The notes beneath the pieces were generated by a model. The model made no database searches. It was not told the origin of the DNA and saw nothing but the letters and a program-made list of their open reading frames with translations. A program made the translations under genes and the position numbers. From NCBI GenBank assembly GCA_035691485.1, contig DASSIZ010000017.1, positions 1-34,398 on the forward strand: a stretch of 34,398 bases of DNA. Direction: 5' to 3'. Source of the stretch: Terriglobales bacterium (lineage in GTDB: Bacteria; Acidobacteriota; Terriglobia; Terriglobales; Acidobacteriaceae). This document shows, in pieces, positions 3,134-34,398 of the stretch (its first letter is position 1; every line of letters starts with the position of its first letter).

Positions 3134-4156
3134 ATGAGCAGCCTTCACTTTGTTCGCGGAGAACACCAAACATCTTTCTCTGCTCCCCCAATTGAATCTT
3201 CGGACGCTGAACTTCTCGATGCCTACTCGCGCGCGGTTACCTCAGCGGCCGAGCGCGTCGTGCCGGCGGTCGTGCACATTACGGTGACGTCGAGGCTGCG
3301 ACGGGCCGGCGCGGAGGTGGAACGCGCTGCCGGTTCGGGTTCCGGTTTCATCTTTACTCCCGACGGCCTGATCCTGACCAATAGCCATGTGGTTCACGGC
3401 GCCTCCCGCATTGAAGTACAGGTTTCCGACGGCCGGCACATGCCCGCGGTCCTGATCGGCGATGATCCCGGGACCGACCTTGCCGTGGTCCGCGTCGAAG
3501 GCACGGGGCTCCCGTTCGTGACCCTGGGAAATTCCAAGCGCCTGCAGGTCGGCCAGTTGGTGATCGCCATTGGCAGCCCTTTCGGCTTTCAACACACCGT
3601 AACGGCCGGAGTGGTAAGCGGCCTTGGACGCACTCTGCGCTCGCGTTCCGGACGGCTGATCTCCGACGTTTTGCAAACCGACGCTGCGCTCAACCCCGGT
3701 AACTCCGGGGGACCGCTGGTCAACTCACGCGGCGAAGTAGTCGGCGTGAATACGGCGACCATATTGCCGGCGCAGGGAATCTGCTTCGCCATCGGCATCA
3801 ACACCGCGCAGTACGTGGCGGCGCGATTGATCCGCGATGGCCGCATCCGGCGCGCCTACATCGGCGTCGTCGGCCAGACGGTGCCGCTGGCGCGCAAACT
3901 CAGGCTGTTTCACAATGTCGAGCAGGAATCGGCCATCCTGGTGCAGTCGGTGGAAAACGGGAGCCCCGCGGAGCGCGCCGGAGTGCGCGCCGGAGACCTG
4001 CTGCTCAGCTTCGCCGGGGGCGTGCTCGCCGGCATTGACGACCTGCAGCGCGAACTTAGCGATGAACGTATTGAGCGCGCCGCGGATCTGCTGATCCTGC
4101 GCGGCGTGGAGCGTGTGCAGGCGAAGATTACGCCGGAAGAATATCGAAACGAGTAG
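3134..4156 (+). CDS. DegP/HtrA-like trypsin-type serine protease with one PDZ domain
   Basis: A 340-residue S1C protease. The catalytic triad is complete: His85 in TNSHVV, Asp115 in GTDLAVV and Ser191 in NPGNSGGP. A single PDZ domain covers about residues 245-335 (SVENGSPAERAGVRAGDLLLSF). Proteins of this group degrade or sense misfolded substrates in the periplasm. Here, however, no signal peptide or N-terminal membrane segment is visible: the first 40 residues are polar, so it is either cytoplasmic or the true start and export signal are misjudged. The ATG has only a closely spaced AGGA before it, so the start is uncertain. It runs toward the marR gene and the two stops are five bases apart. 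Confidence 0.9.
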   Translation: MSSLHFVRGEHQTSFSAPPIESSDAELLDAYSRAVTSAAERVVPAVVHITVTSRLRRAGAEVERAAGSGSGFIFTPDGLILTNSHVVHGASRIEVQVSDGRHMPAVLIGDDPGTDLAVVRVEGTGLPFVTLGNSKRLQVGQLVIAIGSPFGFQHTVTAGVVSGLGRTLRSRSGRLISDVLQTDAALNPGNSGGPLVNSRGEVVGVNTATILPAQGICFAIGINTAQYVAARLIRDGRIRRAYIGVVGQTVPLARKLRLFHNVEQESAILVQSVENGSPAERAGVRAGDLLLSFAGGVLAGIDDLQRELSDERIERAADLLILRGVERVQAKITPEEYRNE

Positions 4157-4161
4157 CGTGC

Positions 4162-4635
4162 TCAGCGCTTCTGGTCGCCATTGCGATCCGCGGCGACGGT
4201 CGTTCCGAGTTTGCGAGCCAGCGCTGCAAGTGTCTCCTGCTCGGACGGAGTGAGCGCCGACATCAAGTCCACCATCCGCTCCAGATGCTTGGGGAACAGC
4301 TGCGCGATAAGCCTCCTTCCCTTCGCAGTAATTGCAACCAGGTAATAGCGCTTGTCGGCGGCCTGGCGGGTGCGCGTCACCAGCCCCCGCCTTTCCAGGT
4401 TTCTGACTACCATGGTCAGGTTGCCGCTGGTTTTCAGGATCTTGCGCGCCAACTCGCCGAGACACAGCGAACCGATGTGGTAAAGCGCTTCCAGCACGCC
4501 GAACTGGCTGGGAGTCAGTCCCGCAGACTCCACTTGCGACATGAGCAAGGAATCCACTGTGTCGGCGGCCCGCAGCAGCTTGACGTAAACGTTGAGCGCG
4601 CGTTCCTGCCGGGCGGTGCCATGAAAGTGTTTCAT
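4162..4635 (-). CDS. MarR-family transcriptional regulator
   Basis: A 157-residue winged-helix regulator. The MarR fold is seen in the segment from LTPSQFGVLEALYHIGSL through the recognition helix (KTSGNLTMVVRNLERRGLV) to the wing (RQAADKRYYLVAIT), with flanking helices for dimerisation. It has one cysteine, Cys58 in SLCLGEL, a place where some MarR relatives sense oxidants; that is speculation here. The start ATG is preceded by CAAGGCTGAG. A 20-bp palindrome 23 bases upstream of the start (4658-4677) most likely mediates autorepression, and a matching site in front of pirin suggests a second target. The metal-uptake operon upstream on the same strand ends 105 bases away and is probably a separate unit. 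Confidence 0.92.
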   Translation of the reverse strand: MKHFHGTARQERALNVYVKLLRAADTVDSLLMSQVESAGLTPSQFGVLEALYHIGSLCLGELARKILKTSGNLTMVVRNLERRGLVTRTRQAADKRYYLVAITAKGRRLIAQLFPKHLERMVDLMSALTPSEQETLAALARKLGTTVAADRNGDQKR

Positions 4636-4657
4636 CTCAGCCTTGCGGATCGTAAGT

Positions 4658-4677
4658 ATGGTTCAATATTAAACCAT
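4658..4677. promoter_or_regulatory. 20-bp palindromic operator upstream of marR
   Basis: ATGGTTCAATATTAAACCAT is palindromic except for one base pair. Read on the minus strand its core, GTTTAATATTGAAC, is identical to the site in front of the pirin gene. Its position 23 bases before the marR start suits autoregulation. Confidence 0.65.
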
Positions 4678-4740
4678 TTCACCAGGACCGCGCGAAGGGA
4701 AGCAAGGGCGTTCGTTTGGCACCTGCAGCTGAACTTGGAG

Positions 4741-5607
4741 TTACCTTCTCTCCTGGTACACGGTTTCTCGCTCACGCACCGGCAGGGGCACGCGACGCCA
4801 AAAGAACGTGCGCGCCAGGAACATCAGCAGCAGCACGCCGCCGAACGTGCATACGATCGTCGCGCCCGTCGGCAGGTCCATCCAGACAGAGAAGTAACAA
4901 CCAAGCGCCGAAACCAGCGTGCCCATGGTCCAACCGATGGCCAGGCGCGGGCCGATGCGGTCGGCAAAAAGCATGGCGCCAACCGAGGGCACCACCAGAT
5001 AACAAAAGACGAGCAGCACACCGGCGATGGCGACCGAAGAGGTGACGACAAATCCGAATGATGCGTAAAAAAGAAAATCCCACAGCCCGATCGAAATGCC
5101 GGACTGCTCCGCCAATTTCGGGTCGGTGGAGATGAGCAGGAACTTGCGCCGGAAGATGTAATGAAAAAGCCCGATGGCGCCGTAAAGTACGGCGGTCTTG
5201 ATGACCTCCGGACGCGAAACGGCGAGAATGTTGCCCACCAGCATGTCCTTGAGGTGCTCTGTTTCTCCGGTCGCTTTGCTCATCGCGAGAATGGCGGCGG
5301 CGGAAGCCACGGCGTAAGTGATGCCGATGAAAGCTTCCAGCGGAATGCGTCCGCGGTGTGCGCGCACCAGTGCGAAGATGCCGGCGCCGAGGAACGTGAA
5401 GGCGAGACTGATCCAATAGGCCCCGCCGCCGTGCGGATCCATGCCGGCCAGGATTGCGATGGTGGCGCCCAGCGCGGCAATCTGCGCCAGCGCCAGGTCC
5501 ACGAAGATGACTCCGCGCTCGACAACATGCACCCCAAGGTAGGCGTGAATGCCGGTCAAGATCAGGCTGGCAAGAAATGGCAAAATCAGGAACGAGAGAA
5601 TCAACAT
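4741..5607 (-). CDS. ABC-3 family metal transporter permease (ZnuB/MntB type)
   Basis: A 288-residue inner-membrane permease with about eight to nine hydrophobic helices, of the ABC-3 family that imports Zn2+, Mn2+ or Fe2+. Typical segments are HVVERGVIFVDLALAQIAALGA, here running as positions 27-48, the LEAFIGITYAVASA stretch and the cytoplasmic ATPase-contact region around LVGNILAVSRPEV. It ends in a charged tail. ATG 5607 has AGGTG nine bases upstream. The receptor gene ends 40 bases upstream, so the two are surely cotranscribed. What is missing is the ABC ATPase: neither side of the pair nor any other part of the window encodes one. Metal specificity cannot be told from the permease. Confidence 0.92.
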   Translation of the reverse strand: MLILSFLILPFLASLILTGIHAYLGVHVVERGVIFVDLALAQIAALGATIAILAGMDPHGGGAYWISLAFTFLGAGIFALVRAHRGRIPLEAFIGITYAVASAAAILAMSKATGETEHLKDMLVGNILAVSRPEVIKTAVLYGAIGLFHYIFRRKFLLISTDPKLAEQSGISIGLWDFLFYASFGFVVTSSVAIAGVLLVFCYLVVPSVGAMLFADRIGPRLAIGWTMGTLVSALGCYFSVWMDLPTGATIVCTFGGVLLLMFLARTFFWRRVPLPVRERETVYQERR

Positions 5608-5647
5608 CTATGGTTCACCTGTGTCGAGCATTCCGACTGGCGATCGT

Positions 5648-6568
5648 TTATTTTGTCGCGTTGAACGCCTTGGTCAATAACCCGATATCGTAATCGAAGA
5701 GCTTGAAATAGTTGTCGATTCCCTTTTCGCCGCCGACGGAAGGCAGCAACACCAGCACCTGCGCGCCGGTTTCGCGGCCGATGCTGTTCGGCGTCTTCAG
5801 GTCGAAGTAGGGTTCCACCAGCACTAACTTAACATTGTCGCGCTTCATCATCTGGATCAGTTCCAGCGTGTGCTGGGGCGTCGGCGGAATGCCGGGGCGG
5901 GGCTCGATGTATCCCACCACGTTGAGTCCGAAGTGCTTGGAAAAGTTCGTCCAGGAGTTGTGATAGGTGACCACCTTGCGCCCGCGAAATGGCCCCATCT
6001 GGTCGTCCCAGTTTTTCTCGGCCGCGGTAAGGCGCTTTTCGAAATCGGCCAGCCGCTGCTGGAAATAGGAACTGTCCTGGGGATCAAGTTCGCCCAGTTT
6101 GGCGGCGATCCCCTTCGCCACACGCCGGCCATTGTCGGGATTGAGCCAGTAGTGCGGGTTTCCGAGTGGGTGGACGTCGCCCATGGCGCGTGTGACTTGG
6201 CCGGTAGGAATTTCCAGTATCTCGGCAAACTGCGACGCATCGAGGTAGCCCGGTGCGCCGACTTGCACGCGAGGATTGCCGCTTTGCGTGATCAGCGGCG
6301 GCAGCCATCCGATTTCCAGTTGCAGCCCGACGCTGATCAGCAGGTCGGCATTGCGCAGCTTCAACAGAAAACTCGGCTTCGCTTCCACGAAGTGCGGGTC
6401 CTGGTAACCCTTGGCAATCGCTTCAATGTTGATGCGGTCGCCTCCGACTTCCTGCGCCAGCGCGGCAAGATCGGTGGTCGAAGTGACCACATTGAGTTTT
6501 TTCGCGAACGCCAGGGGAGCACCGAAGATCAGGACCGCCGCGATCGAAATTACAAGATAACGCTTCAT
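5648..6568 (-). CDS. Periplasmic metal-binding receptor of ABC transporter (ZnuA/TroA family)
   Basis: A 306-residue cluster A-9 solute-binding protein. A signal peptide (MKRYLVISIAAVLIFGAPLAFA) precedes the mature start. Expected metal ligands are present: His59 in DPHFVEAKP, His139 in GNPHYWLNPD, His203 in TYHNSW and an acidic residue in the VEPYFD region. The His-rich loop of classical ZnuA is absent, so Zn, Mn and Fe are all possible. The start is ATG 6568, preceded by GGAGAAAGAA; an in-frame upstream codon at 6604 would add 12 residues before the signal peptide and is unlikely. It lies between an outer-membrane barrel gene, 54 bases upstream, and the permease, 40 bases downstream, making an outer-to-inner membrane metal uptake operon. 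Confidence 0.93.
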   Translation of the reverse strand: MKRYLVISIAAVLIFGAPLAFAKKLNVVTSTTDLAALAQEVGGDRINIEAIAKGYQDPHFVEAKPSFLLKLRNADLLISVGLQLEIGWLPPLITQSGNPRVQVGAPGYLDASQFAEILEIPTGQVTRAMGDVHPLGNPHYWLNPDNGRRVAKGIAAKLGELDPQDSSYFQQRLADFEKRLTAAEKNWDDQMGPFRGRKVVTYHNSWTNFSKHFGLNVVGYIEPRPGIPPTPQHTLELIQMMKRDNVKLVLVEPYFDLKTPNSIGRETGAQVLVLLPSVGGEKGIDNYFKLFDYDIGLLTKAFNATK

Positions 6569-6622
6569 TTCTTTCTCCATATATGGCAACCGGCTGCTAA
6601 GCAATCAGAGCCGGGCACTGTC

Positions 6623-7894
6623 TTAAAACGGGTGCGCACCGTGTGCGCCCAGTGAAAACTGCAACTGCATGAGGAACTCGTGCGCGTCCAGGTGCTCGGC
6701 ATAGCGCGTCAGCCGGTACTGCCCGCGAATCTGGCTAAACTCGCTGGGCCAATAGGTAAGCACGAGCGAGGTGCCGCTGTCGGTGAGGCCATCGTTGTGG
6801 GACCGGTCGGAGCGGTCATAGCGCGCTCCGCCGAACCACCGCCTTCCGAACTGGTAATCGCCCGCGGCATACCAACCGAAGGAGCGCTGCAGCCGCGGCA
6901 TCTGCTCGCGTCGGCTCCAGATGAACTCGCTGCGCCCGACGAACGAATGGTAGATAGATCTGCGCAGCGGCTTCCATCGCAGGGTAGCGTCCACGCCGTA
7001 AAGCTGGGTCAGGAAACTGCTGCCGAGATCGTTGTGACCGCGCGCGTAGGAAGCGCCAATATCGATGTTGGTCGACTCGCTGATATCGCGATAGCCGCGC
7101 AGGTGTGCGACCGCGCTCACGTCACTGCGTTTGCTCGAGGTAAACACATCCGCCGAATCGCCGCGTAACACCTGCCCGGTAGCTTCCAGGAACAGGCCCT
7201 TGGGCGCGGGCAGGATGCGCGTCAGCGACAGGCCGGCGTCATTAATGCCGTCCTCGCCACCCGCCAGGCTGTTGGTAACCAGCGGCCGGTCTATCCAGGG
7301 CAGCACGTGATTGTGCAGCGTGTTCACCTTGCCGAAGGCCGCACGCATCTTGCCGCCGCGTAACACGAATCCCGCCGGCAGCGCCGTGAACGTGATGTAG
7401 CCCTCTTCCAGGTTCACGCCTTGTTCTCCGAAGGAGATGAAGAAGTCGCCGCGGGCGTAGGGATCGACAATCGCCTGGAACCCGACTTCCGATTCATGCA
7501 TCTGGAAGGCCGGCGTTTGCAGCAGCGGGTTATGTCCCATGGAACCGATGAAGTCGCCGATCACACTGATGTCTGGGTTCAGCGCCTTGGCTGCGGCCGA
7601 AGCTCCCCCATAAACAGGCAACGTAGCCGCCGGCTGTGTCCCGGCAACCTGCGCGGGCGTCTCTGCTGCCGCTCCGACCGGTGCCGCTGGCGCAGGCACC
7701 GCGGTGGCGGGCGTGGCGGCGGTCGCGGCCTGCGCTTGTTGCGCCTTCAACGTGCGCACCTGCCCTTCCAGGGCGATGATGCGTTCCTCCAACGCCTTGA
7801 TGCGATCGTCCTGGCTCTGCTGCGCCGGCGCGGCCAGGGGAACTGCTATGCAAGCAAATATTAGAAGTGCAGCGCCCGATATGCGGTAACGCAT
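6623..7894 (-). CDS. Outer-membrane beta-barrel protein of the metal-uptake operon
   Basis: A 423-residue porin-like protein. It has a signal peptide ending about APAQQ, then a coiled coil with a heptad look (DDRIKALEERIIALEGQV), an Ala/Pro/Thr linker, and a barrel from about residue 105 rich in alternating aromatic strands, finishing with Phe as outer-membrane barrels usually do. The coiled coil plus barrel layout recalls porins that trimerise or attach to the cell wall. ATG 7894 is chosen because GGAGG lies seven bases upstream; TTG 7909 has nothing. Its place in front of the metal receptor suggests it admits the metal through the outer membrane. I do not recognise an exact family. Confidence 0.8.
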   Translation of the reverse strand: MRYRISGAALLIFACIAVPLAAPAQQSQDDRIKALEERIIALEGQVRTLKAQQAQAATAATPATAVPAPAAPVGAAAETPAQVAGTQPAATLPVYGGASAAAKALNPDISVIGDFIGSMGHNPLLQTPAFQMHESEVGFQAIVDPYARGDFFISFGEQGVNLEEGYITFTALPAGFVLRGGKMRAAFGKVNTLHNHVLPWIDRPLVTNSLAGGEDGINDAGLSLTRILPAPKGLFLEATGQVLRGDSADVFTSSKRSDVSAVAHLRGYRDISESTNIDIGASYARGHNDLGSSFLTQLYGVDATLRWKPLRRSIYHSFVGRSEFIWSRREQMPRLQRSFGWYAAGDYQFGRRWFGGARYDRSDRSHNDGLTDSGTSLVLTYWPSEFSQIRGQYRLTRYAEHLDAHEFLMQLQFSLGAHGAHPF

Positions 7895-14805: not shown

Positions 14806-16476
14806 ATGGCGAAACCAATTTTGCTCAGTGTCGACGACGACGCAGACGTGCTGCGGTCAATTGAGCGTGATCTTCGATCGCAATACGGCGCCGAATACCG
14901 AGTGATGGGGAGCGATTCTCCCGAAGGCGCGCTGGATCTTCTCCGACAACTCAAGGTCCGGAATGACAACGTGGCCCTGCTGCTTGCCGATCAACGCATG
15001 CCGCACATGGACGGGGTCAATTTTCTGCAGGAAGCAACCCGGATTTTCCCCGATGCGAAGCGTGCGTTGTTGACCGCGTATGCCGATACCAATGCCGCGA
15101 TCAGCGCGATCAATGAAGCCAATATCAGCTATTTTTTTCTCAAGCCGTGGGATCCACCGACAGAGCACCTCTATCCGCAGTTGGATGATTTGCTCGACGA
15201 CTGGCAGGCTTCGTACCGGCCAACATTCGAGGGCATTCGGTTGCTGGGCACGCGATGGTCGCCACGCGCGTATGAATTACGGGATTTCCTGGCGCGCAAC
15301 CATGTTCCATATCAATGGATTGACGTGGAGCTTTCCGCCAACGATCCGGAAACCAAGAGGTTGCTGGAGGCGCTCGGTCCGGAGGCGGCGAATCTGCCGG
15401 TCGTATTGTTTCCCGACGGAAGCAAGCTGCTGGAGAGCGTGCCGGCGGACGTAGCGCAAAAGATCGGATTGCGGACGCGGGCGCAGACTGACTTTTACGA
15501 CTTGGCCATCGTGGGTGGAGGACCGGCCGGACTGGCCGCGGCGGTTTATGGCGCATCCGAAGGACTTCACACGGTGGTGATCGAGCGCGAAGCGCCGGGA
15601 GGACAGGCGGGAATGAGCTCGCGTATCGAAAACTACCTGGGGTTCCCGAGCGGACTCAGCGGAGGCGACTTGGCGCGTCGCGCGGTAACCCAGGCGCAGC
15701 GATTCGGGGTCGAGATTCTGTCGCCGCAGGAAGCCGTGGGCATACGCATCGAGGGACCGTACCGGATTATCAAGCTGGCGGACGGCAACGAACTCTCCTG
15801 TCACGCATTGATGATTGCTGCCGGCGTCCAGTGGCGGCGACTGGACGCTCCGGGAATTGAGCGCTTGCAGGGGGCCGGCGTTTACTACGGTGGAGGCTCA
15901 ACCGAAGCGCTGTCGTGCAAGGGCGAGATTGTGTATGTGGTGGGCGGCGCGAATTCGGCGGGACAGGCCGCCATGAACTTCTCCAAGTACGCCGAACGCG
16001 TGGTCATCCTGGTGCGCGGAACGTCGCTCGCCAGCACCATGTCACAGTACCTGATCGATCAGGTCAAGGAGACATCGAACATTCGGTTGTGGACCCATGC
16101 CAGCGTGGCCGAAGTGCATGGCGACACGCACCTGGAGGAAATTTCGGTTTTGTGTTCGGACACTGGCAAAACGGAGCGTGTGCCGGCCAGCGCTATGTTC
16201 ATCTTTATTGGAGCCCTGCCGCGAACCACTTGGCTGGGAGAGGTGGTAGAGCGAGACGAACGTGGCTTCATCCTGACCGGCCCCGACCTCATGCGCGACG
16301 GAGAACGTATCAAGGGATGGACCCTGGATAGGGATCCGTTCCTGCTGGAGACCAATGTGCCGGGAGTGTTTGCGGTGGGCGATGTACGCCATGGGTCGGT
16401 TAAGCGCGTGGCTTCCGGAGTGGGTGAAGGATCGGTGGCCGTGCAGTTCATCCATCAGTATTTGAGCAAGGTCTAA
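14806..16476 (+). CDS. Response regulator fused to thioredoxin-like and thioredoxin-reductase-like domains
   Basis: A 556-residue three-domain protein. Residues 1-130 are a receiver domain with phospho-acceptor Asp62 (LADQRMPHMDG), Thr90 and Lys113 (FFLKPW). Residues 142-225 are a glutaredoxin/thioredoxin-like fold (RLLGTRWSPRAYELRDF ... NLPVVLFPDGS) with no CxxC. Residues 230-556 match low-molecular-weight thioredoxin reductases: FAD motif VGGGPAG (236-242), GGQAGMSSRIENY, NAD(P)H motif GGANSAG (380-386) and the final VFAVGDVRHG flavin contact. The redox-active CATC of the reductase is replaced by YYGGGSTEA, so it cannot reduce thioredoxin in the normal way. The kinase gene starts right after its stop codon and is its evident partner. 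Confidence 0.92.
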   Translation: MAKPILLSVDDDADVLRSIERDLRSQYGAEYRVMGSDSPEGALDLLRQLKVRNDNVALLLADQRMPHMDGVNFLQEATRIFPDAKRALLTAYADTNAAISAINEANISYFFLKPWDPPTEHLYPQLDDLLDDWQASYRPTFEGIRLLGTRWSPRAYELRDFLARNHVPYQWIDVELSANDPETKRLLEALGPEAANLPVVLFPDGSKLLESVPADVAQKIGLRTRAQTDFYDLAIVGGGPAGLAAAVYGASEGLHTVVIEREAPGGQAGMSSRIENYLGFPSGLSGGDLARRAVTQAQRFGVEILSPQEAVGIRIEGPYRIIKLADGNELSCHALMIAAGVQWRRLDAPGIERLQGAGVYYGGGSTEALSCKGEIVYVVGGANSAGQAAMNFSKYAERVVILVRGTSLASTMSQYLIDQVKETSNIRLWTHASVAEVHGDTHLEEISVLCSDTGKTERVPASAMFIFIGALPRTTWLGEVVERDERGFILTGPDLMRDGERIKGWTLDRDPFLLETNVPGVFAVGDVRHGSVKRVASGVGEGSVAVQFIHQYLSKV

Positions 16477-17865
16477 ATGGTCACGGCATCAGAATTACTT
16501 CGCGTTCCGGCATTCGACGGACTGCCTGAGGATCAGCTTGCCTGGTTCCTCAGCCAGTCAGAGGAGCTGTATCTCAAACCCGGGGACACGTACGTGCGGC
16601 CAACCGACCCGGCGGCGGCGATGTTTGTGATTCTGGAGGGAGAACTCCAGGTGCGAGGAGATTTTGCCGGCGAGACTGTCGTGATTCCGGTCAACGCGGG
16701 CCAAGTGACCGGCGCGCTGCCGTTTTCGAGGATGACGCAGGCCAAGGTAACCGGACGCGCACTCACCGCCAGCCGCCTTTTGCGTTTTCCGTCCGCACTT
16801 TTTGCAGAACTGGTGCAGAAGATGCCGGAGTTAACCAAGCGGCTGGTCGGGGTGATGTCCGACAGGATCCGCGAAGTCACCCGCATCGAACAGCAACGCG
16901 ACCGGCTGGCTGCGCTGGGTAAACTTTCGGCTGGGCTGGCGCATGAACTCAACAATCCCGCCTCCGCCGCCAAACGTGCCACCAGTCAATTACGCGACAT
17001 TCTGAAACGTATCAGGGATACGAGTCACGAGTTAGGACGGCGCGAGCTGACGCCGATGCAAAAGGCGGAAATCGAAAAGTTGGAAGCTTCCCTCACCACG
17101 CGGGACGAGCCCCCGCCGGATGCCCTGACGATTAGCGACTTGGAAGAGCAGATTGAAGCGTGGTTGCACAATCACGGGCAGAACGACCTCTGGCAACTGG
17201 CGTCCGATCTGGCGCGCAGGAATATCAGGCCGGCAGTCTTGGAGTCGCTCTTTGCGACACTCGAGCCAGATACGGCGCGAGCTGCGCTGGTGAGGATTGC
17301 GGCGTCGCTGGACGTGGCGACCCTGCTGAATGAAATCGAAAGCAGCACTTCGCGGATCTCGGAGCTGGTGCAGGCGATCAAGGAATACACGTTCATGGAC
17401 CAGTCGCCTCTCCAGAACGTAGACATTGTCAAAAGTCTTGAAAATACGCTTACGATTCTGAACCACAAGCTCAAACGCCGCGGCGTCGGGGTGCGGCGCG
17501 ACTACGAGCAGGTTCCACTGCTGGTGAATTCGTTTGGCAGCGAGCTCAACCAGGTATGGACCAATATCATTGACAACGCCATCGACGCGATGGGGGAAAA
17601 GGGCGAGCTTCGAGTTCGGACCTGTCGAGAGGACGCTTGCGTACTCGTTGAGATCGGCGACAACGGGCCAGGAATTCCGCCCGAGATTAAGTCGCATATT
17701 TTTGAGCCTTTCTTCACCACCAAGGCAGTCGGCGAGGGCACTGGGCTGGGGCTCGATACAGTGCAGCGAATCGTAAGGAAGCACCGAGGCAACATTCAGG
17801 TCACATCAAGCCCAGGCGATACGCGATTTCAAGTCTGGCTTCCCCTGGCGGAAGCTCCCAGATAG
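16477..17865 (+). CDS. Sensor histidine kinase with N-terminal cNMP-binding-like domain
   Basis: A 462-residue cytoplasmic kinase. Residues 10-115 form a cyclic-nucleotide-binding-type beta roll (MFVILEGELQVRG), but the phosphate-binding signature (FGE...RxA) is not recognisable, so the ligand may not be a cNMP. His156 in AGLAHELNNPASAA is the phospho-acceptor. An unusual helical stretch of over 100 residues (165-285) separates it from the second dimerisation helix. The ATPase domain has its N box (NQVWTNIIDNAIDAMG), DNGPGIP, the FFTTK F box and GTGLGL. No membrane segment exists. The ATG follows the previous TAA with no gap, so both are made together; the phosphate target is the receiver domain of the fusion. 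Confidence 0.93.
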   Translation: MVTASELLRVPAFDGLPEDQLAWFLSQSEELYLKPGDTYVRPTDPAAAMFVILEGELQVRGDFAGETVVIPVNAGQVTGALPFSRMTQAKVTGRALTASRLLRFPSALFAELVQKMPELTKRLVGVMSDRIREVTRIEQQRDRLAALGKLSAGLAHELNNPASAAKRATSQLRDILKRIRDTSHELGRRELTPMQKAEIEKLEASLTTRDEPPPDALTISDLEEQIEAWLHNHGQNDLWQLASDLARRNIRPAVLESLFATLEPDTARAALVRIAASLDVATLLNEIESSTSRISELVQAIKEYTFMDQSPLQNVDIVKSLENTLTILNHKLKRRGVGVRRDYEQVPLLVNSFGSELNQVWTNIIDNAIDAMGEKGELRVRTCREDACVLVEIGDNGPGIPPEIKSHIFEPFFTTKAVGEGTGLGLDTVQRIVRKHRGNIQVTSSPGDTRFQVWLPLAEAPR

Positions 17866-27674: not shown

Positions 27675-27782
27675 AACTTTCGCTGTTGCGTCCTCGAGAA
27701 ATGGGGGCTTGCCGCAACAGTGTACTCGATTGCCACAACTGAACGTGGCCGTCAGAAGTCGGATACCAACAGCCCCCTCGGC

Positions 27783-28295
27783 CTAGAAGCTGTACTTCAA
27801 CGACAGCGTTCCGACGTTCGCGTGGAAGTCTCGAGGAGCGACCACCCGCAGGAGCCCCAGGCTTGCGGCCTCATCCTTCGAGTTGTAGTCGTAGTAGCTC
27901 CACACGCCCTTGAACTGGACCCCTTTGACCACCTCGTAGGCAATGCCCAAATGAGCCTTGTGCCAGTTGATGGCCTGCGGGCCGAGCGGCTGATCCGGAA
28001 ACGGACCGACGAAGGCACAGGTCGGCGCCCCGCTCACGGTCCCGACTTGCGGTGCGTTGGAAGGACAAGCCAGACCCAATGGATTACTTCCGGCAAGAGC
28101 CGGTGCGTTACCGAACACATCACCGACAACCAGGAGCTGTGTGCCATTGTCGGCGCGCAGCCACCTGGTGTGTCCGTTATCGCCGGTGATTTCATAGCCC
28201 AGGGTCAGGGTCACCCGCTTGACCGGCTGAAAGGAAATGTTGGCGTAACCGGAGTTCGTGGTCTCCTGATAGTCCAATAGCAAGTTTCGAGCCGT
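27783..28295 (-). pseudogene. C-terminal fragment of an outer-membrane beta-barrel protein
   Basis: About 170 codons encode only the last strands of a barrel: GYANISFQPVKRVTLTLGYEIT, then a long loop, NWHKAHLGIAYEVVKGVQFKGVWSYYDY across about 140-165, and a C-terminal NVGTLSLKYSF with the terminal Phe of outer-membrane proteins. There is no signal peptide. The frame is formally open to 28373, but those codons pass through a hairpin and do not resemble a protein start. It is best read as the tail of a decayed or partly deleted barrel gene lying just behind the MtrB-like gene. Its repeated YYDYNSKDE and strand pattern resemble large acidobacterial barrels rather than the MtrB neighbour. Confidence 0.6.
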
Positions 28296-28321
28296 GGAAG
28301 CCGGCGGCAGTAGCATGAGCG

Positions 28322-28359
28322 CCCACTGTACGTGGGATGGGCACCATGACCCATCCCAC
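28322..28359. repeat. Perfect inverted repeat behind the MtrB-like gene
   Basis: Ten-base perfect arms GTGGGATGGG (28332-28341) and CCCATCCCAC (28350-28359) surround an eight-base loop. A further CCCAC at 28322-28326 could pair alternatively with the first arm. It starts 17 bases past the MtrB-like stop. No T tract follows on the minus strand, so it is either an mRNA-protecting hairpin or a REP-like element rather than a standard terminator. Confidence 0.55.
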
Positions 28360-28375
28360 TCGTTACAGGCCAAGC

Positions 28376-31147
28376 TTAGAAGTGGTACTCGAGTGTGGCC
28401 GCGATGTAGTGCACACGGTACGAGGGCTGGTCGACCCCGAGGAACAGGTATCTGGCTGCGGAGTTGTCGCCCACCGCGAAATACGGATAGAAGGGGCTGG
28501 ACGTAAAAGCCGGAGTTGCAGGATTAACTGTTGGGGAGTTGGCCAGTAGCCTGACGTTGCATGGGGCACCGACCAGATTTGCTGCCGCCGACCCGGTGAA
28601 GGGCGCCTGGGGGCTGATGCAACCCATGTAAGGCGTCATGGCCGAAGTCTGGTAGTCCTTGTTGTCGAACTGCTGGAGGCGGTACTCAAACTTGGGCACG
28701 AAGCTCTTGCTTAGCTTGTACTTGAAGACAACCGCCAGCTCGTGCATGCGGGTAGTGGTTTGGGGATAGGACGTAGCTGCGCTTGTATTAACCAGAGTGA
28801 AGCAATCTGGCCTGGAGGGAGCACACGAAAGCGAAGTCGCCCCAGCAGCGGTATTGATGATTCTGGAGTCGCCCAGCCACGAGGTGAGGACATTGCCGGT
28901 TCCCGCCGACAAAGAATAGTAAGTCGAAATGTTGATCTTCTTGCTGGCCGAAGCATCTATGCCTGCTGTATACGTGTCAAAAATGTCGCGATAGATGCTT
29001 GACCAATCATTGTTGCTGGTGTCGCATCCGTTACAGGTGAGGATGGTCTGCACGCCAGTGGTGGGCGCGCGGTTTCGCGAGACCATGCGCTTGTGGTACC
29101 TCTCGTGGGCATACTCGGCAAACAACGAGAGGTTCTTCGAAAACGCGTAACTACCATCAACGGCGTAGATGAACGACAGGTCCTTCAACGCACCGTAGAG
29201 ATAGTATGGACCAACGGTTGTTCCTTGGCCCCCGGTGGGGGTAGGGTTGAGCGGGACGGCACTGTTGACGCCACCTTTGCGGTTAAAGTCGTTCTGGATG
29301 GTCTGGAAACTGCCGGTGAAGGTGAATTTCTGAAGATTGTACTGCACCATGACATCAGCCCGGTTCAGCAGCCGGGAAGCTTCATCAAACCGGCGGTGAC
29401 ACCGTTGCTCGCTGGTAAAGGCTGTGGTGGTGGTATCGGAACAGGGAACTTCCACCTCCACCCCGGCAGCATTGATAAAGGACGCTTCCCTATCCTGGTA
29501 TTCCTCCGGCTTGCGATCCTGGTGCCGCCCCGACACGCGGAACAGCAGGTCCCGGGTCGGACTCCAGTCAACGCCGCCAAAGAAGGAATTCTCGGTGGAA
29601 TGGGCGGCGTCACGATGGCTACGGTCCATCCATTCGCGCTCGTAGCCGACCTTGACCGTGCTGCGAGTGGCGAAAAACCAGTCGCCACTCACCTCGAAAG
29701 TCTTGCGGTTATAGCCAAAGGGACTGTTGATCTCGGTGGCGCCACTGCCGGACGTGACCGTGGGATCGCCCGGAGTTAACTGGCCTGTTGCGGTGGCGTT
29801 CGCCCCGATAGTGTCACCCAGAATGGGCGTGAATGCGCGACTGGGAGTGTTGTTGTTGTAGTCGTAATGGCGATACTTGGCCGCCAGTTCGACACTCTTG
29901 ACAGGCTTCAGTATGGCCGTCCAGTTCATGGCCAGTGTCTGCTTCTGGCCTCCCAGGCGGGGCGCCGGAAGCGCCCCAACGGTGATCGCGGTGTTCGCCG
30001 TGTAGGGAAGGAAAGGGTCATTCTGGCGCAGCCAGCCGGGGTTGACTGTACCCTGAATGCGCACGTACTTGCCGAGGTCGAAGGCGCCGGCAAAGTTCAG
30101 GTAGTGCGCATGATTGTCGGGATAAAGATCCACCTGTCCGTGGGCGGGAACGGCGCCAATGGAACACCGAGACGTGCCCGTACACCCGTTCTGGCCCGGG
30201 GCAAAGGTCAACACAGGAACATCCGCGGTGGCAAACGGGTTGTCGAAAACCATGGATGGGGTATTGTTTGTGAAAAACGACCCAGTGTAACCGACCTGCA
30301 CCACCCAGCTCTGCTTGCCGTATTCGATCGACGGTTTCACGGTGTTGGTGAAATAGTCGATCGTCTCGGGAAGCTCGACGCCCGTACCGGGACTTGGCAG
30401 AGGGTTTGCTGCCGTACCAGTGAGCCCGGAAGACAGGCTATTGGCGCTCGCGCTGGGGCTTGGGTTGAAGAGCAGTCCAATGGGCCGCGTCCCCACCTGG
30501 TTTTCGCGCGTGTACAAGATCGAGATGTTGAAGTCAGGGGTGATGTTGTAGCTGATCAGGCCCGTCCCACCCTTGCGGACAATGGCGGGCACGATGAAAG
30601 TTTCGCCGGGAACCAGTTGCGTAGCCACTAGCGGCGGCAGGTTGTTATTGATCTGGATTGCCGTGCCGATGGCTGACGCCGCCGTCAACGACGTCTTCAG
30701 GGCCGGCGACAACGTCCACACCCCGCGGCCGGTAAGCACATAGGGGGTTCGCGTGGTGTTGGAGTAAGTGTGCGGTATCTCGTCGTAGCGGAACTGGACC
30801 TTGAACTTGCCGTATTCACCCAAGGTCGTCAAGTAGCTCTGGTTCTTGTAGAACGTGCTTTGCGACTGCGCGTTCAAATACATCTTCGACCCTAGCACAT
30901 TATCCAGATTGACGAAGAACCTGGGGACCACGAAGCCGTTGCGGATGTCGCGATACTCGCTGTATTTCGAGGTAAAAATGTCGGGACTGAATGGCAGATC
31001 AGGGCGGCCGTAGACGTCGCCCCAGGAATGCCGGACGCCAAACTCGACGCTGCCAAGTGGGACCTTTTCTTCTTGCCCGTAAAGCGCCGCGGGAAGAAGC
31101 AGAAGTGCGAGCAGCACAACCAGCGTAAGTTGCTTTGTTTTTTTCAT
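28376..31147 (-). CDS. MtrB/PioB-family outer-membrane barrel of an electron conduit
   Basis: A 923-residue outer-membrane protein. A signal peptide (MKKTKQLTLVVLLALLLLPAALYG) comes first, followed by EFGVRHSWGDVYGRPDL and a long barrel of alternating aromatic/hydrophilic strands (KFKVQFRYDEIPHTYSN, SIEYGKQSWVVQVGYTGSFF), many with the paired-strand look of MtrB/PioB, ending in LEYHF. The family forms the porin sleeve that holds a multi-heme cytochrome through the outer membrane. The N-terminal CxxC of Shewanella MtrB is absent. AAGGAGG lies ten bases before the ATG. The decaheme cytochrome ends 15 bases upstream, so the two form an operon, cytochrome first. Length is larger than MtrB of Shewanella (about 700). 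Confidence 0.9.
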   Translation of the reverse strand: MKKTKQLTLVVLLALLLLPAALYGQEEKVPLGSVEFGVRHSWGDVYGRPDLPFSPDIFTSKYSEYRDIRNGFVVPRFFVNLDNVLGSKMYLNAQSQSTFYKNQSYLTTLGEYGKFKVQFRYDEIPHTYSNTTRTPYVLTGRGVWTLSPALKTSLTAASAIGTAIQINNNLPPLVATQLVPGETFIVPAIVRKGGTGLISYNITPDFNISILYTRENQVGTRPIGLLFNPSPSASANSLSSGLTGTAANPLPSPGTGVELPETIDYFTNTVKPSIEYGKQSWVVQVGYTGSFFTNNTPSMVFDNPFATADVPVLTFAPGQNGCTGTSRCSIGAVPAHGQVDLYPDNHAHYLNFAGAFDLGKYVRIQGTVNPGWLRQNDPFLPYTANTAITVGALPAPRLGGQKQTLAMNWTAILKPVKSVELAAKYRHYDYNNNTPSRAFTPILGDTIGANATATGQLTPGDPTVTSGSGATEINSPFGYNRKTFEVSGDWFFATRSTVKVGYEREWMDRSHRDAAHSTENSFFGGVDWSPTRDLLFRVSGRHQDRKPEEYQDREASFINAAGVEVEVPCSDTTTTAFTSEQRCHRRFDEASRLLNRADVMVQYNLQKFTFTGSFQTIQNDFNRKGGVNSAVPLNPTPTGGQGTTVGPYYLYGALKDLSFIYAVDGSYAFSKNLSLFAEYAHERYHKRMVSRNRAPTTGVQTILTCNGCDTSNNDWSSIYRDIFDTYTAGIDASASKKINISTYYSLSAGTGNVLTSWLGDSRIINTAAGATSLSCAPSRPDCFTLVNTSAATSYPQTTTRMHELAVVFKYKLSKSFVPKFEYRLQQFDNKDYQTSAMTPYMGCISPQAPFTGSAAANLVGAPCNVRLLANSPTVNPATPAFTSSPFYPYFAVGDNSAARYLFLGVDQPSYRVHYIAATLEYHF

Positions 31148-31162
31148 TGCTCTTCTTCCTCC

Positions 31163-32140
31163 TTAGCGCAAAAACATATTTCCGGACGGGTGGTTAGACC
31201 CGTGGATCTGGGAATGACAATTGGTACAACCGCGGTTGAAGTCGCGGATTGCAGGGAGCAGCGTGGGTGTGGTGGGGTGACGGCTGGTCACGTGACAGGA
31301 ATCGCAAACCCGTGGCATCCGCACTTTCAGCAATTGCGGGTTGTTAGTGCCGTGCGCTTCATGGCAGTTAGCGCAGTTTTCCATCACCGGGGGATGTTCC
31401 CAGAGGAACGGCCCTCTCCGCTCGGTGTGACATGAGAGGCAGTTCTCGTTGACGGTGGCCTGAATGAGCTGTTTCGGATTGGGCGTGCCGTGGGGATTAT
31501 GACAACTGGTGCAGGTGACCTTGCCTTCACGGTACGGCATGTGCGAGGAGCGCTGCAACTGTGCGCGCCGCATCTGGTGACAATCCAGGCAGAGTTCAGG
31601 CTGGGGCTTCTTCACCCCGCTGACTTCGGTGAGCGGCTGGCTATAGCGCGCCTCGGAGGTAAGCTTATCGTATCGGCGGCCCGGATTTCCGTAGTGGACC
31701 TGATGGCAGTTGATGCAGGCAATGGCGCGCGACTCGTGCGGGCTGCCGCGCCAGAAGATGCGATTGCCGCGTGAGTGGCAGGTGAGGCAAGCCGAGTTCT
31801 GCTCCTCCACCGAGTTCTTGGAATCCTTGGTGAAGCGGACAGGAATGGTGTCCTTGCCGCCACCGGCTTCCACGTGAGCCTTACCCGGCCCGTGGCAAGC
31901 TTCGCAGCCACGAGCTTCCCACGGCGTTTTGGGATGCGCCATGGACTTACCCATGACGGTATTGACGTACGACTTTTGCTGGCCCTCGTGACAGGCGACG
32001 CAGGTGTCCATGCCGACGTAATCGCCGTCAGATTTTGCGGCAGGTTTCGCGTTGGCCTGTGGAGCGGCGGAGTTGGACTGTGCGCCGGCGAGGGCCGTCG
32101 CGAAGATTAAAACGAGGAAGACTCCCGATATGGACCTCAT
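31163..32140 (-). CDS. DmsE-family decaheme c-type cytochrome
   Basis: A 325-residue periplasmic cytochrome with ten CxxCH heme sites, at residues 47, 79, 118, 142, 184, 210, 234, 256, 279 and 305 (first Cys). The MtrA/DmsE type carries electrons across the periplasm into an outer-membrane barrel. The signal peptide is MRSISGVFLVLIFATALAGA. The end, CTNCHSQIHGSNHPSGNMFLR (last 21 residues, shown here only by its motif), is a DmsE signature. ATG 32140 is chosen for the signal peptide; GGAGGT lies 15 bases upstream, farther than usual, and the frame is open to 32356 without a signal. It is followed by its MtrB-like partner 15 bases downstream. Confidence 0.93.
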   Translation of the reverse strand: MRSISGVFLVLIFATALAGAQSNSAAPQANAKPAAKSDGDYVGMDTCVACHEGQQKSYVNTVMGKSMAHPKTPWEARGCEACHGPGKAHVEAGGGKDTIPVRFTKDSKNSVEEQNSACLTCHSRGNRIFWRGSPHESRAIACINCHQVHYGNPGRRYDKLTSEARYSQPLTEVSGVKKPQPELCLDCHQMRRAQLQRSSHMPYREGKVTCTSCHNPHGTPNPKQLIQATVNENCLSCHTERRGPFLWEHPPVMENCANCHEAHGTNNPQLLKVRMPRVCDSCHVTSRHPTTPTLLPAIRDFNRGCTNCHSQIHGSNHPSGNMFLR

Positions 32141-32242
32141 AGCCGGCTGCGCCCGACCTCCTTTGTTTGTATTGGAATAAACATGAGCCCGAAACGGGTC
32201 CCGCAAAACAGGGCCATAATGGGCATCGTTGTACGAAAGGGC

Positions 32243-32276
32243 TGTGACTCGGAGCACATGTATTTGTGATCGAGTC
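32243..32276. promoter_or_regulatory. Nested palindrome in the leader of the cytochrome operon
   Basis: GACTCG (32246-32251) and CGAGTC (32271-32276) pair around CACA (32255-32258) and TGTG (32265-32268), leaving a six-base loop. Within it TGTGA-N6-GCACA (32243-32258) resembles a CRP/FNR-type half-site pair. It lies about 103 bases before the cytochrome start. The 434-base gap 32141-32574 between the divergent genes otherwise shows no gene or known riboswitch. Confidence 0.45.
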
Positions 32277-32574
32277 GCGGGGGTTAGCGGGAGAAGATAC
32301 TGGACGGCGGCGATTCGTTCTAACTGGCGCTTACACTCTGGGTCCTTGTAGGGCATTTTGAATTCTTTCTTGCTACCACGCAGACGAGAGGTGCGCCAAT
32401 CGCACCATCACGGTGAGAGAGGATACACAACGGTCTCCTTTTGGGAAGTGATTCTTACAGATTCGACCTTTATTTCCTGTCACTTAGGTGGTGCCAGCAA
32501 CAGCCGGAACGGGATGAGCTAGGATTGCAACTTCCACGAACGCTTTGCACTGGGGCTTGGACGGGAACCCACGA

Positions 32575-33732
32575 ATGGAAACCGCGGACGTTGTCATTAT
32601 CGGCGGAGGGATTGTCGGGTCCAGCATTGCCTATCATCTGACTGCTGCCGGATGCCGCAATGTGCTGGTGATCGAGCGCGAAACTTCGCAGGGCAAAGGT
32701 TCCACCGGCAAGAGCATGGGCGGCGTCCGCGCGCAATTCGCCACTCCGGTCAACATCCAGATGTCGCTGTACTCGATTCCCTTTTATGCCGCCTTCGATG
32801 AAACCCTCGGATTTCCGTGCGGCTACCGCCCCCAGGGATATTTGTTCATGGCCACGCGCGAGTCGCACATGAACTATGTCCGCTCCAACCTGGAGCGGCA
32901 GATTGCTCTGGGTCTGAAGACGGCGCGGCTGGTTTCCGCGGGCGAAATCCGTTCCCTCTACCCGCAGTTGCGCGGCGACGACATCGTCGGCGGCAGCTTT
33001 TGCTCCACCGACGGCTTTGTTGATCCCTACAGCGCCATGATCGGCTTCACGACATGGGCCGTGGAACACGGCGCGCGGATTTGGAAGAACGCGACCGTGT
33101 CAGCAATCCGAGTTGAGCGTACGCGCGTAACGGCCGTAGAGACCACGCGCGGCCCTGTGGAAACGCGCGTCGTCGTCAACGCCGCCGGCCCATGGGCATC
33201 CGAGATCGCCGCCATGGCCGGGATCGAGTTGCCGGTGGTTCCGCTGCGTAGAATGCTGGTGCCCACTGAACCATTCGACCAATTCCCGCACACCGCGCCC
33301 ATGATCATCGACATGAGCAACGGTTTTCATTTCCGTCCCGAGTCGCTTGGTTTCCTCCTGGCGTGGAATGACCCGGAAGAGACGCCCGGCTTTAAAACCG
33401 ATTTTGAGCCCGCTTTCATCGAGAAAATCCTGACCCGCGCCGCCGACCGCGTACCCGTCTTTGAAAACCTGGCGGTGAATCCCAAACGTGCCTGGGCCGG
33501 ACTCTATGAAGTCTCGCCCGATCATCACTGCATTCTCGGCCCAGTAGACGAAGTGCGCGGCTTCTTCCTCGCCAACGGCTTCAGCGGGCACGGCGTGATG
33601 CACGCACCCTCAACCGGAAAGATTCTCGCTGACTTGATCCTGACCGGCAGCACCAATATCGTGAACCCGGAATTGCTGAGCCTGAACCGCTTCGCAAGCG
33701 GAAGGCTGCTGGAGGAAACGGCAGTACTCTAG
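32575..33732 (+). CDS. FAD-dependent amine/amino-acid oxidoreductase (DAO family)
   Basis: A 385-residue flavoenzyme of the DAO superfamily (sarcosine oxidase beta / glycine oxidase-like). The Rossmann FAD motif is VVIIGGGIVGSSIAYHL (residues 6-22), followed by the dinucleotide-binding GKSMGGVRAQFA. The substrate-side NAAGPWASEIAAM and the C-terminal GLYEVSPDHHCILGP ... FLANGFSGHGVMHAP are typical of the family. It likely oxidises an N-methyl or D-amino-acid type substrate to a keto or imino product. ATG 32575 is chosen as the first residue of the conserved domain; the frame is open to 32545. The hydantoinase gene begins 26 bases downstream and is likely cotranscribed, hinting at a degradation pathway for a cyclic amide or amino acid. 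Confidence 0.9.
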   Translation: METADVVIIGGGIVGSSIAYHLTAAGCRNVLVIERETSQGKGSTGKSMGGVRAQFATPVNIQMSLYSIPFYAAFDETLGFPCGYRPQGYLFMATRESHMNYVRSNLERQIALGLKTARLVSAGEIRSLYPQLRGDDIVGGSFCSTDGFVDPYSAMIGFTTWAVEHGARIWKNATVSAIRVERTRVTAVETTRGPVETRVVVNAAGPWASEIAAMAGIELPVVPLRRMLVPTEPFDQFPHTAPMIIDMSNGFHFRPESLGFLLAWNDPEETPGFKTDFEPAFIEKILTRAADRVPVFENLAVNPKRAWAGLYEVSPDHHCILGPVDEVRGFFLANGFSGHGVMHAPSTGKILADLILTGSTNIVNPELLSLNRFASGRLLEETAVL

Positions 33733-33758: not shown

Positions 33759-34398
33759 ATGAGAATTGCCGTTGACACCGGCGGGACCTTTACCGATTGC
33801 GTCTTCCTGCGTGACCGCAAGATCCAGGTCCTGAAAGTCTTCTCCACAGCGGCCAATCCGTCGGATGCAATCGTTGCCGCGCTCCGGAAAATCAGCCCCG
33901 GCGCAAAGCCGGAAGTCCGCCATGGAACCACTGTCGGCACCAACACCTTGCTGGAGCGCAAAGGAGCGCGTGTGGCTTTCGTGACCACCGAGGGTTTCGA
34001 AGACACTATCGCCATCGGACGTCAGGCGCGCCCGCGCTTGTACGACTGGTTCATGGTTCCGGATCCCGCGCTGGTGCCCGCGGAGTTGCGCTTTGGCGTC
34101 GCCGAACGAACCTCGGCAACTGGTGAAATTCTGAAATCTCCCAGCGCCGAGGACTTGCAAGACCTAGTGGTCTCGCTGGCAGCAGCGCGGCCCGATGCCA
34201 TTGCCGTTTCCCTCCTCTTTTCCTTCGCGAACGTCCGCAACGAACAGGCTGTCGCCGGCGCGTTGCGCAAGCTCGGCTTGCCCATTTCGCTCGCACACGA
34301 GATTCTTCCCGAATTCCGCGAGTACGAGCGCGCCTCCACCGTCGCTGTCAATGCCTATCTCGCCCCAGGAATGGGACGCTACATCAGCGGACTGCAGC
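33759..34398 (+). CDS. Hydantoinase/oxoprolinase A subunit, N-terminal part (partial)
   Basis: The first 213 codons of an ATP-dependent hydantoinase/5-oxoprolinase-type subunit; it runs off the window with no stop, which is why size-limited gene finders overlook it. The ATP-binding start IAVDTGGTFTDCVFLRD and the RHGTTVGTNTLLERKGARVAF block are diagnostic of HyuA/OplA, and the RYRER-like ILPEFREYERASTVAVNAYL follows. The family opens 5-oxoproline, hydantoin or related rings. Some relatives instead act as acetone or acetophenone carboxylases. The ATG has no strong ribosome site. It lies just after the FAD oxidoreductase, and a B subunit would be expected next. Confidence 0.92.
   Translation, partial: MRIAVDTGGTFTDCVFLRDRKIQVLKVFSTAANPSDAIVAALRKISPGAKPEVRHGTTVGTNTLLERKGARVAFVTTEGFEDTIAIGRQARPRLYDWFMVPDPALVPAELRFGVAERTSATGEILKSPSAEDLQDLVVSLAAARPDAIAVSLLFSFANVRNEQAVAGALRKLGLPISLAHEILPEFREYERASTVAVNAYLAPGMGRYISGLQ

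Follow-up and report, generated by a model that had tools for sequence, protein, structure and literature searches.

An mtrAB pair of another acidobacterial type at the position of a resident decaheme/barrel pair in a Terriglobales genome

Contig DASSIZ010000017.1 of the Terriglobales bacterium assembly GCA_035691485.1 (34,398 nucleotides, analysed at full length and called the window, or C17, below) carries two adjacent genes, mtrA and mtrB, which encode a decaheme c-type cytochrome and a putative outer-membrane barrel. Sequence comparison shows this mtrAB pair to be a module that is intact and akin to those of other acidobacterial genera, at the position where its genus has a resident pair of the same general plan. 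The module appears to have displaced the resident pair, and we infer that the foreign conduit is now expressed and exported under control signals of resident origin. Our reading, to which we give a probability of roughly 0.7, is that the pair forms a two-subunit conduit of the MtrAB/MtoAB/PioAB kind that took the place of the resident pair and exchanges electrons with extracellular partners.

The mtrAB pair and its mosaic locus

An earlier sequence-only reading of the window had placed a DmsE-type decaheme cytochrome and an MtrB/PioB barrel in one operon at 28376-32140. This was borne out: mtrA comes first with its ten CxxCH motifs, the two genes are 15 nt apart with GGAGG in between, and these coordinates run exactly from the mtrB stop to the mtrA ATG. 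The mtrA product passed TIGR03508, the DmsE family model (250.8 bits, cut-off 192.2), and its residues 37-323 aligned with PDB chain 6r2q_A (E=3.5e-59); we take 6r2q to be the Shewanella MtrCAB complex and chain A to be its MtrA. Beyond the ten heme motifs it contains 11 His residues, 9 of which fall in His columns kept across all 12 window-type rows. Besides mtrA, no open reading frame (ORF) of at least 120 amino acids (aa) with at least two CxxCH was found in the window; single-heme proteins were not sought.

The mtrB product passed the Pfam model PF11854 (MtrB_PioB) with 266.4 bits at a cut-off of 23, and matched chain 6r2q_B with E=0.0021 as a single sequence and E=1.6e-10 as a family profile. 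The barrel had been called unusually large, which is true relative to 6r2q_B (695 aa, about 230 aa shorter) but not within its own clade, where open frames span 852-1001 aa and its size is ordinary. It was also said to be without the Shewanella N-terminal CxxC. The first Cys is indeed residue 322, as might be expected, since the title of a paper cited in PMC12175506 calls CxxC a signature of metal-reducing Gammaproteobacteria. Another CxxC, of the form CxGC, occurs at residues 705-708, in a long loop predicted by a poor model, and Cys708 is invariant in all eight aligned sequences.

For the genus, three further genomes were compared (G012/L093, G022/L092 and G150/L094). In all three, the resident barrel has its own decaheme ahead and adjoins the same flavin adenine dinucleotide (FAD) oxidoreductase as in the window, so the position that mtrAB has in the window is taken in its genus by a different decaheme/barrel pair. 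The short ORF behind mtrB (27783-28373) showed 67-72% identity to the C-terminal end of the barrel in each of these relatives, and the remnant DNA followed the resident loci of all three. On the other side of the module, the retained leader was 76.8% identical to L093 over 250 columns and 76.5% identical to L094 over 217. This stretch takes in the first 23 mtrA codons, and the signal peptide is nearly the same as in these two relatives. L055, a locus from another genus, aligned in a single piece at 28373-32029 (69.3%). When the best source was assigned in steps of 150 nt, it was resident at 27700-28299, from other genera at 28300-32049 and resident again at 32050-32649, with one undecided step in the other-genus stretch and one in the last resident stretch. 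The junctions lie within 28302-28372 and 32030-32071, and the join in mtrA is in frame. Resident DNA, taken from L093 and L094, measures about 3.09 kb, versus 3.77 kb in the window. No further copy of the resident barrel was found in the assembly, the remnant being its sole place, which argues for in-place exchange of a self-contained conduit module. The sequence-only reading had covered the pair exactly, leaving out the remnant and missing the mosaic.

In a phylogeny of mature MtrA (35 sequences), the window grouped with L055, L056, L058, G110 and G162 (support 97/97), and ten resident cytochromes formed a separate clade (100/100) with the window outside; the program warned that the join of this clade to G221 is possibly a long-branch effect. 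The genome's own cytochromes on contigs C114 and C33 fell with their genus orthologues. A tblastn search of 22 loci with the incoming or related types, two duplicates included, gave no match to the resident barrel. The G+C content of the module, overall (GC) and at third codon positions (GC3), is close to that of the flanks and speaks neither for nor against transfer. Terminator and promoter scans gave counts no higher than in shuffled sequence, and an Rfam scan returned two tRNAs and nothing else.

Table 1. Features of the mtrAB locus (window coordinates)
Feature	Position	Strand	Basis or remark
mtrA, decaheme c-type cytochrome, 325 aa, 10 CxxCH	31163..32140	minus	ATG at 32140, stop ends at 31163; chimeric, with resident-type signal peptide and incoming-type mature part
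mtrB, MtrB/PioB-type outer-membrane barrel (predicted), 923 aa, C-terminal Phe, without N-terminal CxxC	28376..31147	minus	Family scans and structure-chain profile match
Incoming module (mature mtrA and whole mtrB)	28302..32071	minus	Homology to L055 (other genus) at 28373-32029; resident homology ends at 32072 and 28301
Leader of resident type, kept with its ribosome-binding region and signal-peptide codons	32072..32317	minus	DNA match to L093 and L094
3' remnant of resident barrel gene, C-terminal ~167 aa	27784..28301	minus	Open frames of intact homologues, 922-1027 aa
FAD-dependent oxidoreductase (DAO family), divergent, synteny anchor	32545..33732	plus	85-88% protein identity in three genus relatives
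Gene start, second synteny anchor; product N-terminus presumably hydantoinase-like	33759..34397	plus	73-75% identity in L092 and L093

The incoming type, the resident family and other multihemes

Relatives of mtrB were found in nine named loci, all of them metagenome-assembled genomes (MAGs) of Acidobacteria, Terriglobia or Acidobacteriales, several from groundwater; this set may omit records of the source genome. Among sampled genomes, mtrB was matched in 10 of 150 in the order at E<=0.001 (weak matches to C33-type paralogues included), in 29 of 396 in the phylum at E<=1e-20 and in 12 of 398 in the family at E<=1e-100. The 12 comprise the window itself, G022 and G150 through a C114-type paralogue, and nine others with the window type, which belong to nine different genera.

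Of the 14 incoming-type loci that could be assessed, eight (G142, G063, G118, L059, L061, G151, G549 and G516) had multiheme genes with membrane segments behind mtrB. Each of the eight has one or more of three kinds: 11- or 19-heme proteins with several membrane segments and a cytochrome-b-like part, 5- or 6-heme proteins with at most three segments, and 9-heme tail-anchored proteins. These calls are based on heme counts and hydrophobic stretches; domain scans covered four C89 proteins and a single protein each from L047 and L059. The plan of the 11-heme/cytochrome b protein presumably resembles that of CbcL. CbcL, MtoC and MtrH are treated in PMC6295460. Split loci were counted once (L045+L054, L058+L063), the second contig being assumed to continue the first; L056, which has 0.5 kb downstream, and L168, at a contig edge, are not among the 14, and L057 and L060 duplicate L046 and L048. 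By eye in the ORF lists of the 14 loci, no adjacent multiheme protein without a membrane segment beyond the signal peptide was seen, mtrA aside. L056, outside the 14, has an upstream 7-heme ORF with an N-terminal segment only. For the window, the sequence supports the earlier claim of a two-part outer-membrane conduit with no adjoining surface cytochrome.

The genome (3.84 Mb in 145 contigs, 98.5% complete, 2.6% estimated contamination) contains two more MtrA-MtrB pairs, one on C33 and one split by contig ends between C114 and C89. On C33, the decaheme frame lies at 6526-7512 and the barrel frame at 3807-6653. A molybdopterin-oxidoreductase-like ORF lies near this pair at C33:10686-11795, within a locus (L042, C33:3807-15370) that also encodes two 4-heme proteins and one with five hemes and weak similarity to QrcA (81 bits, below the cut-off of 180). 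C114 carries the decaheme and most of a barrel and C89 the barrel end; from query cover of 1-549 and 585-841, we infer that the two barrel parts are one gene. Behind the barrel end, four genes on C89 are likely to serve electron transfer at the inner membrane. Their products are a 19-heme protein whose C-terminal part includes a hydrophobic stretch, a protein resembling cytochrome b, an 11-heme/cytochrome b fusion and a 6-heme protein carrying a NapC/NirT domain. C67 encodes a 9-heme protein that has a hydrophobic segment at its C-terminal end.

A search of the rest of the genome for multiheme lipoproteins had been proposed as a check. The search made here was family-based rather than heme by heme, so that the list of multihemes may be incomplete, and it yielded, among others, 28-, 23-, 19- and 9-heme proteins, none of them over the cut-off of TIGR03507 (OmcA/MtrC), for which eight weak places were seen across the genome. 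The 28- and 23-CxxCH ORFs are adjacent on C85 (L100, 5692-10223), have one N-terminal hydrophobic segment each and are unlinked to mtrAB; the 28-heme protein passed TIGR04257, the 'nanowire' triheme model (56.8 bits, cut-off 40). A genome scan with PF22113 (MtrC/MtrF domain) gave 22 weak places and six rows over the cut-off, all of them summed frames, in mtrA of C17 (three), mtrA of C114 (two) and a 178-aa 4-heme ORF of C124 (one). In single-protein scans PF22113 was passed by the 28-heme, 23-heme, C67 9-heme, C89 19-heme and L047 9-heme proteins, and also by the decahemes of the window and of the resident pair. Since it passes MtrA-type proteins, this model can neither single out surface cytochromes nor clear the large ones. 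The absence of a surface cytochrome thus holds for the locus; with the large multihemes on C85, it is unproven for the cell.

The resident barrels (L094:9873-12638 and L145-L164) are a subject of their own. Matches at E<=1e-10 occurred in 134 of 250 sampled family genomes, the remnant of the window included, and covered 47 of 79 genera, many of them being partial. Directly ahead of the barrel, a decaheme was present in 19 of the 20 best loci (17 whole, L157 frame-split, L160 cut by the locus edge); the twentieth, L150, includes no more than 30 bases before the barrel, too few to judge. PF11854 matched one of ten members scanned (E=6e-4), and a profile comparison with the window barrel gave a local match of 76% probability. 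From these sequences, the resident barrels probably form a second porin-cytochrome conduit family, unnamed and mostly missed by public MtrB models. One acidobacterial MAG carries tandem MtrAB pairs of differing types (L058:5192-12451). Elsewhere in the window, at 14806-17865, a response-regulator domain is fused to a pyridine-nucleotide disulfide oxidoreductase, and the next protein in this stretch has cNMP-binding and histidine-kinase-type ATPase domains.

Proposed electron path and its alternatives

By homology, the decaheme would form a wire threaded through the wide barrel and would receive periplasmic electrons from the electron-transfer chain of the host. Because the module arrived without partner genes, it probably uses partners encoded elsewhere in the genome. 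Candidate donors are the 19-heme, cytochrome b, 11-heme/cytochrome b and 6-heme NapC-type proteins of C89 and the tail-anchored 9-heme protein of C67. Ending at the membrane surface, the conduit could hand electrons directly to soluble or mineral acceptors such as Fe(III) and humics, or to a separately encoded, possibly secreted, multiheme cytochrome. Our guess, at somewhat better than even odds, is that the flow is outward. We further consider, as a doubtful extension, that the locus may be a 'socket': the promoter region and signal peptide would stay fixed, and entire conduits with very different barrel families could be swapped behind them as units. If so, the cell would re-tool its outside contact and leave the inner-membrane chain untouched. 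Apart from the socket idea, the locus is a natural experiment: it bears on whether MtrA and MtrB travel together as a co-adapted unit, and on whether the electron chain of a host can be served by a foreign conduit, a question that also limits the transplanting of such chains into other bacteria.

Several points weigh against, or limit, the reading of a functional conduit that displaced the resident pair. The mtrB product stayed below the cut-off of the narrower curated NCBI model TIGR03509 (211 bits, cut-off 240.05); relative to this model it is at most a divergent member, and for this reason it is named MtrB/PioB-type and not MtrB. Its AlphaFold2 model, from an eight-row alignment, had a mean pLDDT (predicted local distance difference test) of 35.1, with long loops alternating with short turns, and a manual count of roughly 26 strands in this poor model is a hint only. 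Nine distal His columns of MtrA passed the conservation filter, versus ten expected. The leader had no match in the third genus relative, L092, whose signal peptide is different, so the leader is common to two of the three relatives. Six of the 14 loci (G110, G109, L055, L058/L063, L062 and G162) showed no multiheme genes with membrane segments behind mtrB in the examined stretch, two of them having a 3-heme protein. Multiheme/cytochrome-b partners occur in iron oxidisers too, and therefore do not fix the electron direction. Moreover, the mosaic was observed in one genome only.

This single example, from an assembly of 145 contigs with 2.6% estimated contamination, could reflect an assembly chimera in which DNA of two species was joined at the locus. 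We find that improbable, because the assembly would have to be wrong twice, once in passing from own to foreign DNA and once in returning, each time at a matching place in a syntenic locus, and still keep the signal peptide in frame and the mtrB stop intact; the closeness of module and flanks in GC and GC3 argues only weakly in the same direction, as likely donors have similar GC. A two-step course is possible at somewhat less than even odds, which overlap with those of the displacement itself: the module would have been inserted in the resident operon and the remaining resident genes deleted later. The tandem pairs of different types in L058 would fit such a course, but no intermediate was seen and the first-pair barrel of L058 had no match to the resident barrel family.

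On function, inward electron uptake from Fe(II) or another outside donor, as in PioAB and MtoAB, seems unlikely to us. Those two are known two-part conduits without MtrC and have been linked with the oxidation of Fe(II) (PMC8805035), and Acidobacteriia are among the groups listed with PioA/MtoA homologues (PMC10654088); the multiheme and cytochrome-b-like genes often found behind the incoming type lean instead to quinol-linked flow, without being decisive. Extracellular dimethyl sulfoxide (DMSO) respiration of the DmsE/DmsF kind is barely credible. It takes its cue from mtrA passing a model named for the DmsE family, but the resident cytochrome and the MtrA of C114 and C33 pass TIGR03508 as well, so this unspecific name is not evidence of DMSO use. 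The molybdopterin oxidoreductase model PF00384 had no match on C17, which leaves the earlier suggestion of DMSO use without support on this contig; the eight loci found elsewhere in the genome were not checked for a DMSO reductase. Displacement of the resident pair by a two-subunit conduit remains our preferred reading.

Relation to known systems

Conduit genes of this kind have been described in the phylum, so the host is not as unexpected as the sequence-only reading had it. Thirteen acidobacterial genomes have mtrA/mtrB homologues, with complete mtr/omc operons absent (PMC5900883), and MtrCAB was reported in five Acidobacteriia, in a paper that regards MtrA and MtrB as evolutionarily tied and MtrC as flexible (PMC8805035). 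A Holophaga porin-cytochrome conduit (PCC) was, to its authors' knowledge, the first for Acidobacteria (PMC7399161). The window pair shares its phylum with the mtrA/mtrB of PMC5900883 and with the Group 5 MtrCAB of PMC8805035; in the available parts of these two papers we met no mention of module replacement behind a kept signal peptide. A partial literature search found no earlier report of such conduit exchange, which says little.

Like Shewanella MtrCAB, the pair combines a decaheme and a barrel in one operon; it differs in having no adjoining MtrC/OmcA and in its barrel, which is about 230 aa longer than 6r2q_B and without the N-terminal CxxC. It resembles MtoAB and PioAB as a two-gene unit without MtrC, and differs from DmsEFAB, as no PF00384-detectable DMSO reductase is linked to it on C17. 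The exchange itself is like xenologous in-situ gene displacement, in which a foreign gene of like function stands at the resident gene's place. Here, in contrast, a two-gene complex appears to have been swapped between divergent families, with the resident leader and signal-peptide codons kept.

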